Positions 16,393-46,601 of a stretch of DNA of 64,000 nucleotides are shown here, piece after piece (position 1 is the first letter of the stretch; each line of letters starts with the position of its first letter). The DNA comes from Sulfurovum sp. TSL6. Lineage in GTDB: Bacteria > Campylobacterota > Campylobacteria > Campylobacterales > Sulfurovaceae. A model generated the notes under the pieces. The model did not search any database. It worked only from the letters and a program-made list of their open reading frames with translations, and had not been told where the DNA came from. The position numbers were made by a program, and so were the translations under genes. Location: contig NZ_BPFJ01000003.1 of the NCBI RefSeq assembly GCF_019972115.1, positions 310,001 through 374,000 on the forward strand, read 5' to 3'.

Positions 16393-17013
16393 TCACCTCT
16401 CATACCCAATTTTTCCATCATACAGAGCTTTCTCCAAAGTGACTAAAAAACCGAATGCCGGATGTTTGAATTGGCCATGACGAAGAATATCCCAATGCTC
16501 CTTTAAGTACTCCTGCAAGAACCGGACAACATGCTTCAGTAAAATGATCTTATACCCTTTTGTTTTTTTTTCGGGCATTATCGAACCGAAGGCCATCAGA
16601 CGTATCCGATGCCCTGCCTGTGTAGTTGTCTCACCTGTTCGCAGCAAACTTCTTACCACCTGATCCACATCTGAAGCAGGACAACAGCCAAATCGAGTCA
16701 ACATTGTTCGAAGCACGATAGGATCTTTAGCATTTTGGTTGATCTCCGCACGGCCTTCTTTTACCTCTGCAACGATCATCTCCGTATGATCGGTTGAACA
16801 TGCCAGTTTCTGATCTGTCGCAAATATTGTTTCCAGGCCTCTCTTGCCCGGGATCAATCTCCCGGCTCCAGGGAAGCGCAATGCAAGAACATCAAGATCG
16901 GTAACCATCCGATAGCCCCCTTCCTCGACAGCCTCGATGACCGGATATTCGGTCACTGTAAAATATCCGTTGATGTAGAGATAGGCCTCCACTATGGCAA
17001 CTGCATTATCCAT
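16393..17013 (-). CDS. Unknown protein with a possible PD-(D/E)XK nuclease core
   Basis: 206 residues, no signal and no membrane helix. MVTDLDVLALRFPG (about 36-49) and, after a loop, EMIVAEVKEGRAEIN (about 79-93) give the D...ExK spacing of PD-(D/E)XK endonuclease-like folds. The C-terminal half is basic and helical (KIILLKHVVRFLQEYLKEHWDIL). I do not recognise a named family. It is the first gene of a two-gene operon with the YHS-LOG fusion. GC-rich codon use sets the pair apart from the AT-rich genes around it. A 8-bp inverted repeat (ATCAACAA at 17043, TTGTTGAT at 17074) lies in its promoter region. Confidence 0.5.
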   Translation of the reverse strand: MDNAVAIVEAYLYINGYFTVTEYPVIEAVEEGGYRMVTDLDVLALRFPGAGRLIPGKRGLETIFATDQKLACSTDHTEMIVAEVKEGRAEINQNAKDPIVLRTMLTRFGCCPASDVDQVVRSLLRTGETTTQAGHRIRLMAFGSIMPEKKTKGYKIILLKHVVRFLQEYLKEHWDILRHGQFKHPAFGFLVTLEKALYDGKIGYER

Positions 17014-46154: not shown

Positions 46155-46247
46155 AAAATGAGCCTTTATAGATGATTTTATAGATTATACACTATGAAGA
46201 TGTAAAAATTGTGTAATTGGTTCGATTTTATGTAAAAGTTTTTTTCA

Positions 46248-46360
46248 AAGAGCATCATAGAATCTAAAAGGGGAGGGAAAAATGATATTAAAATAGACCT
46301 TACAAATAATAGGGGGGAGAGAGGTCTATTTCTATATGATGCTCTTGTAAAAATATTATA
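46248..46360 (-). ncRNA. Candidate sRNA gene srA, copy 1 of tandem structured pair
   Basis: Base helix AAGAGCATC (46248-46256) with GATGCTCTT (46338-46346); inner perfect 10-bp stem AAATAGACCT (46291-46300) with AGGTCTATTT (46322-46331); a 21-base loop that is G-rich on the plus strand and C-rich (CTCTCCCCCC) on the minus; and a one-sided purine/pyrimidine bulge of about 29 bases. A minus-strand TATAAT lies at 46355-46360, about 9 bases before the helix, so transcription is more likely on the minus strand. The direction is inferred. Confidence 0.5.
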
Positions 46361-46439
46361 ATAGTATAAGGTTAACTGAACACTAATAGAAGATTGTATT
46401 ATAAATAAAAGCGGTAAAAAATGGATCAAGTACTTTTCT

Positions 46440-46558
46440 AAGAGCATCTTTGGGACAAAGGAGAAAATGTTTTTAAAAGGAGTCCTAAAATACTTTATAA
46501 AAGGGAGGGGGAAGATTTTAGGTGTCCCTCGATGCTCTTGTAAGTGTAGTGTATTATA
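46440..46558 (-). ncRNA. Candidate sRNA gene, copy 2 of tandem structured pair
   Basis: The base helix sequence is the same as in copy 1 (AAGAGCATC 46440-46448 with GATGCTCTT 46531-46539). The other stems differ in sequence but keep the fold: GGGACA (46452-46457) with TGTCCC (46523-46528), then CCTAAAAT (46484-46491) with ATTTTAGG (46515-46522) around a 23-base loop. The minus-strand loop is C-rich (CTTCCCCCTCCC), and the bulge has CTCCTT twice, complementary to Shine-Dalgarno sequences. A minus-strand TATAAT lies at 46553-46558. Both copies share upstream GTTAACCTT. Confidence 0.5.
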
Positions 46559-46595
46559 TGAAGGTTAACCGTATGCAAATAAAGAGTAGTTACAC

Positions 46596-46601
46596 TATAA
46601 T
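46596..46601 (+). promoter_or_regulatory. -10 box for nagZ
   Basis: TATAAT at 46596-46601 lies 28 bases before the nagZ start, so the nagZ leader is short and the tandem elements are outside its transcript. Confidence 0.5.

Follow-up and report, generated by a model that had tools for sequence, protein, structure and literature searches.

A candidate family of anti-Shine-Dalgarno small RNA genes in the genus Sulfurovum

For NfeR1, an alpha-r14 RNA of Sinorhizobium, anti-Shine-Dalgarno (anti-SD) occlusion of ribosome binding sites has been proven (PMC10746234). Among alpha-r14/cuckoo RNAs, CCUCC-type motifs are conserved and unpaired, the stems are strongly divergent, and each RNA holds several redundant motifs (PMC10746234). 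LhrC1-5 of Listeria monocytogenes form a multicopy group with three redundant CU-rich motifs, located in loops and a single-stranded stretch, that pair to the SD; they are activated by a two-component regulator, and Hfq is dispensable for their action on lapB (PMC4132741). Helicobacter RepG acts without Hfq by pairing with a G-rich leader sequence, and AapA/IsoA of the same genus consists of a toxin mRNA, whose full-length fold stays untranslated until 3' processing, and a partner antisense RNA (PMC8322730).

We analyzed a stretch of 64,000 nucleotides from Sulfurovum sp. TSL6 (contig NZ_BPFJ01000003.1; hereafter the window) that holds two elements comparable to these systems. Like the alpha-r14/cuckoo RNAs, their family carries CCTCC in 91/91 copies, keeps its anti-SD CTCC/CUCC words unpaired (0.93 on average, against 0.76 for all C) and diverges in the inner stems. 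A cuckoo RNA folds into three hairpins that each carry CCUCCUCCC, whereas the Sulfurovum RNA has one inner hairpin inside a near-invariant sealing helix; its motif is usually CCUCC or CUCCUU rather than the threefold CCUCCUCCC, and one motif set lies in the 3' bulge. The cuckoo RNAs also belong to Alphaproteobacteria and Sulfurovum to another phylum, and there was no Rfam match to the cuckoo model. Like LhrC, the Sulfurovum RNAs are multicopy, here in tandem, and distribute several CU-rich motifs over loops and single-stranded parts; LhrC, however, ends in a terminator loop with a motif, whereas the Sulfurovum RNA has no U-run terminator, and the two show no sequence relation. By analogy, the Sulfurovum family appears convergent with both groups.

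RepG, NikS and other sRNAs of Helicobacter and Campylobacter come from the same class (Campylobacterota) and are Hfq-free like the Sulfurovum RNAs, but RepG targets a G-repeat with one loop, differs in locus and structure, and had no Rfam family match in the window. In contrast to AapA/IsoA, neither strand of the Sulfurovum element has a conserved small ORF, and its promoter is conserved on one strand only. CsrB/RsmZ-type sponges need a host CsrA, which Sulfurovum lacks (19/19), and the class of Hfq-dependent trans-acting sRNAs presupposes a host Hfq, found in 0/31 genomes. The preliminary description, made from the letters alone, knew no named RNA of this form and proposed an Rfam scan as a check. 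Nothing in the window reached the gathering threshold, and permissive mode returned two snoRNA chance matches (E about 7.5-7.8), yet alpha-r14/cuckoo RNAs and LhrC share the working principle. The RNA family itself thus appears new and its sealed architecture distinctive, and the functional kind to which we would assign it by analogy, an anti-SD sRNA, is already known.

Tandem elements between the hexosaminidase and TlpA-like genes

The main site is the intergenic region between a glycoside hydrolase family 3 gene (nagZ-like hexosaminidase, 46629, plus strand) and a TlpA/redoxin-like gene (46154, minus strand). Both sRNA gene copies point toward the TlpA-like gene, and the hexosaminidase gene is divergent. 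Copy 1 spans 46248..46346 (99 nt) and copy 2 spans 46440..46539 (100 nt), both on the minus strand and measured from closing helix to closing helix, with predicted +1 positions at A 46348 and A 46541. Both match the family covariance model at full length, with scores of 78.9 and 69.2 bits. The two copies have a common closing helix, P1 (AAGAGCATC/GATGCTCTT), whose 5' arm AAGAGCATC at 46338..46346 faces the 3' arm at 46248-46256 in copy 1; in copy 2 the 5' arm lies at 46531..46539 and the 3' arm at 46440-46448.

Inside this helix, the predicted fold of copy 1 forms an inner hairpin at 46291..46331 (minus strand), in which 46291-46300 pairs with 46322-46331 in plus-strand numbering around a C-rich apical loop of 21 nt (46301-46321). 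The inner helices of copy 2 (46452..46528, minus strand) are GGGACA/TGTCCC, which joins 46452-46457 with 46523-46528, and CCTAAAAT/ATTTTAGG, which joins 46484-46491 with 46515-46522; the 23-nt loop at 46492-46514 carries CCCCCUCCC. An unpaired 3' bulge follows on the minus strand at 46260..46290 in copy 1 (CAUUUUUCCCUCCCCUUUU, the complement of an SD plus AUG) and at 46458..46483 in copy 2 (ACUCCUUUUAAAAACAUUUUCUCCUU). The layout is therefore common to both copies, with an inner hairpin near the 5' arm, a loop of 21 or 23 nt and a one-sided 3' bulge, and the inner helix sequences differ. The preliminary description had recognized most of this, namely two tandem elements at this place with the same 9-bp closing helix (at about 97 nt each, slightly short), inner stems of different sequence in the same position, and loops of 21-23 nt; its bulge length of 26-29 nt suits copy 2 (about 26) and falls short for copy 1 (about 31).

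Compared with dinucleotide shuffles, the minus strand folds with z-scores of -6.0 (copy 1) and -5.5 (copy 2), and the plus strand with -4.0 and -2.8. The flanks of the two copies are also alike (51 nt at 71%), so the shared promoter flanks indicate a tandem duplication of the whole gene including its promoter. An 89-aa minus-strand ORF that runs across copy 1 (46178-46447) was taken as chance, because the longest complete ORF on the sRNA strand inside the elements has a median of 2 codons.

Distribution, covariation and promoter of the family

Trained on 34 copies, a covariance model matched 98 places in 72/78 genomes of the genus Sulfurovum, and the family total reaches 73/78 when a shortened copy in genome G097 is counted. 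The six genomes that the model did not match comprise G097, four that lack the hexosaminidase locus (three of them incomplete assemblies) and one in which the hexosaminidase gene is present and its neighbourhood absent. Outside the genus, the same model gave zero matches across 288 genomes of the order, about 19 of them from the same family. When the host and 59 relatives were searched at the DNA level, 26 genomes gave matches; all but one belong to the host's genus, and the remaining one, from another family, contributed a single short match. Scanning 84,980 named species genomes with a pattern returned 31 stretches, all from Sulfurovum (including Sulfurovum sp. AR, which has both copies) or other Campylobacterota, and the viral contigs searched held no match.

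Most genomes carry one or two copies, and across the genus the site is almost always the hexosaminidase/TlpA intergenic region. In five genomes (L126-L130), further copies occupy a second site of the same neighbourhood, flanked by ilvC and a divergent polysaccharide deacetylase gene, and run opposite to the main copy. In a sister genus the nagZ and tlpA genes also adjoin and the intergenic regions lack the element, which was therefore either acquired within the Sulfurovum lineage or lost elsewhere. The short form in G097 measures 66 nt (L190 2670-2735, plus strand) and keeps the box, the -10, the closing helix and the CU-rich motifs, with the inner hairpin gone; the hexosaminidase gene beside it has a frame break or stop.

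Conservation and covariation statistics rest on 91 distinct copies, collected partly via a loose GTTAACC match; the covariance-model matches, made without this criterion, fall at the same genes. The outer pairs of the family closing helix (AAGAGCAUC/GAUGCUCUU) barely vary and the inner pairs covary. More specifically, pairs 1-7 are invariant in the pattern-selected set and show rare, compensated variation in the model-selected set, whereas pairs 8-11 undergo frequent two-sided changes. Pairs 8-11 and 13 covary over the 91 copies. Pairs 10, 11 and 13, which lie outside the search criteria, are paired in 74, 71 and 71 of the 91 copies against maxima of 53, 64 and 63 in 500 shuffles, although the copies are phylogenetically related and such shuffle tests therefore overstate significance; for pair 12, pairing does not exceed the shuffles. 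The covariance-model alignment of P1 is 96.3% paired and has 7 pairs with double changes, a level that 0/500 shuffles attained. Thus the covariance search proposed in the preliminary description recovered homologues with compensatory changes across the genus, and its argument from two-sided stem changes, which the two copies alone could not carry, holds for the closing helix across homologues. The outer helix is more constant than base pairing requires, which suggests a further role as start-site sequence, protein site or in 3'-end formation. As a family trait, the inner hairpin gives a moderate signal (mean z -1.6, with 37% below -2), and it is real in many copies, with stems as different as CCUAAAAU/AUUUUAGG compared with UCUAAAAU/AUUUUAGA and CCUAAAUU/AAUUUAGG.

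Upstream of the elements, a box (TATTAGTATTCGGTTAACCTT) is common to the 91 copies, at a fixed distance in 77/91, and lies at about -40 to -20, covering the -35 place, where no TTGACA -35 element was seen. It is followed by a -10 hexamer (TAtAaT by column conservation) and a predicted +1 A two bases ahead of AAGAGC. In the window, the boxes stand on the minus strand at 46369..46388 for copy 1 (TATTAGTGTTCAGTTAACCT, -40 to -20 region) and 46562..46581 for copy 2 (TATTTGCATACGGTTAACCT), and in the host genome these two sRNA genes are the only places that match with fewer than 2 mismatches. The -10 of copy 1 is TATAAT at 46355..46360 (minus strand), as previously proposed; the TATAAT suggested for copy 2 lies about 5 bp too far upstream, and the conserved place holds TACACT (46548..46553, minus strand). 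Direct repeats one helical turn apart are the site layout of OmpR-type response regulators. By this analogy, the direct-repeat-like box TTAGT-N6-TTAAC is probably an activator site. The copy 2 box immediately precedes the -10 of the divergent hexosaminidase gene (TATAAT 46596-46601), and one regulator could serve both genes.

The opposite flank of the element is not conserved to a similar degree, and the minus (sRNA) strand folds better than the plus strand in 82/91 copies. No intrinsic terminator was seen, as no U-run or terminator-like site follows the closing helix. We consider it very probable that these elements form a Sulfurovum-specific, previously uncatalogued RNA family read from the minus strand.

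Anti-Shine-Dalgarno content and target searches

The host 16S rRNA ends in GGATCACCTCCTTT, and CCUCC is the host's own anti-SD core. CCTCC, found in every copy, occurs 168 times against 37.7 in shuffled sequences (4.5x), CTCCTT 109 times against 18, and CCTCCTTT 54 times against 4.9; at least 2 CTCC are found in 88/91 copies. The element interior is C-rich and G-poor (C 25%, G 8%). In 66/91 copies, an anti-SD word has a CAT on its 5' side at 2-9 nt, compared with 25.5 +/- 4.1 after shuffling, and the bulge is complementary to SD and AUG jointly, at a spacing about right to mirror SD...AUG. One large subgroup preserves the 3' strand UCAUAGAUUUUUUCCUCCUCCUUUU almost without change amid divergence all around; its complement is a textbook SD-spacer-AUG. 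The unpaired CCUCC in all copies, the promoter conserved on the minus strand only and the better minus-strand fold all favor the minus-strand anti-SD reading of the preliminary description.

Pairing of the two bulges with the start regions of the 59 window genes was no better than that of shuffled bulges (-7.5 vs -7.5 and -8.6 vs -8.3 kcal/mol), so generic SD pairing follows from composition alone. A search for a long specific target with at most 3 mismatches (a 19-mer in the own genome, a 27-mer in eight relatives) returned only the sRNA genes themselves. The best match in the window, a 206-aa gene with no Pfam family (16396-17013), reached -26.0 kcal/mol and is not claimed as a target, as 7/1000 shuffled bulges equal this value.

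Searches for RNA-binding proteins found Hfq (PF17209) absent in 31/31 genomes, with positive controls, and CsrA (PF02599) absent in 19/19 Sulfurovum genomes. The same CsrA search was positive in 9/12 other families of the order and in 3 controls; the absence of CsrA is a genus-level loss.

Alternative readings and proposed mechanism

The C-rich, G-poor interior would also suit KH or cold-shock proteins or Rho loading, and P1 is held to a much tighter sequence than pairing alone needs, its outer 7 pairs being nearly invariant; the RNA could thus be a decoy for an RNA-binding protein, with the C/U-rich segments and the helix as protein sites. We regard this as unlikely, because conservation falls on CCTCC and CCTCCTTT in particular, the words of the host anti-SD, at counts far above composition, and because CAT often lies at start-codon spacing. 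The main-site element is always co-oriented with the tlpA-like gene and just upstream of it, as a cis-acting leader or attenuator of this same-strand gene would be. Each tandem copy, however, has its own box and -10, the ilvC/polysaccharide deacetylase site in five genomes lies away from tlpA, and tlpA appears to have its own promoter after the element, which together make a leader very unlikely.

Function might instead reside on the plus strand, where GGAGG repeats occur and an SD plus ATG is found in 48/91 copies, either as a GGA-rich sponge for CsrA or ribosomes or as a small peptide with the minus-strand RNA as type I antitoxin. Because Sulfurovum lacks CsrA, a sponge for this protein on the plus strand is untenable, and the promoter is conserved on the minus strand only. 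The putative peptides span 1-26 codons without sharing a length, and many copies have lost the ATG, so that we hold a plus-strand function to be highly improbable; a type I toxin-antitoxin or other peptide-coding system was rejected, since neither strand carries a conserved small ORF. The terminal inverted repeats AAGAGCATC/GATGCTCTT and the tandem copies recall a short non-autonomous mobile or REP-like element. IS, REP and MITE sequences are dispersed copies with target-site duplication, whereas the one or two copies of most genomes sit at one or two fixed syntenic intergenic sites genus-wide, and the element is therefore no IS or REP element, contrary to the family match that the preliminary description had named as its refutation. 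Shared promoter flanks, which denote tandem duplication, and the lack of a viral match further render a mobile element barely credible.

The reading we consider likely, largely by analogy with the described systems, is that of trans-acting, Hfq-independent anti-SD sRNAs that would occlude ribosome binding sites. Each element would be a stand-alone minus-strand sRNA gene transcribed from its own promoter, with a presumed activator at the box over the -35 region driving synthesis of an RNA about 100 nt long. The near-invariant 9-bp helix would seal the ends of the RNA, protect it and leave two or three CU-rich segments exposed and unpaired, in the apical loop and the long one-sided bulge. These exposed segments, which carry CCUCC(UUU) as does the 16S rRNA 3' end, often with CAU at start-codon spacing, may pair with the SD...AUG of several mRNAs and so block 30S binding. 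Any such mechanism would have to run without Hfq, which none of the 31 genomes examined encodes. The tandem copies, diverged inside, may adjust dose or target range. A bolder extension, which we put forward as doubtful, is that throughout the genus the family imitates the 3' tail of 16S rRNA, with several anti-SD/anti-start-codon segments under one dedicated regulator, gating translation initiation broadly by titrating ribosome binding sites.

Sulfurovum is a dominant deep-sea vent genus of sulfur bacteria. If the proposed mechanism is correct, the family would be the first conserved post-transcriptional regulator for this genus, whose tested genomes lack Hfq and CsrA. It would also represent an independent origin of the anti-SD sRNA design, in a third lineage besides Alphaproteobacteria and Listeria. 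With 91 copies in 73 genomes and a 66-nt minimal form, the rules of this design would become testable, the helix and the anti-SD words being fixed and the inner hairpin free or missing.
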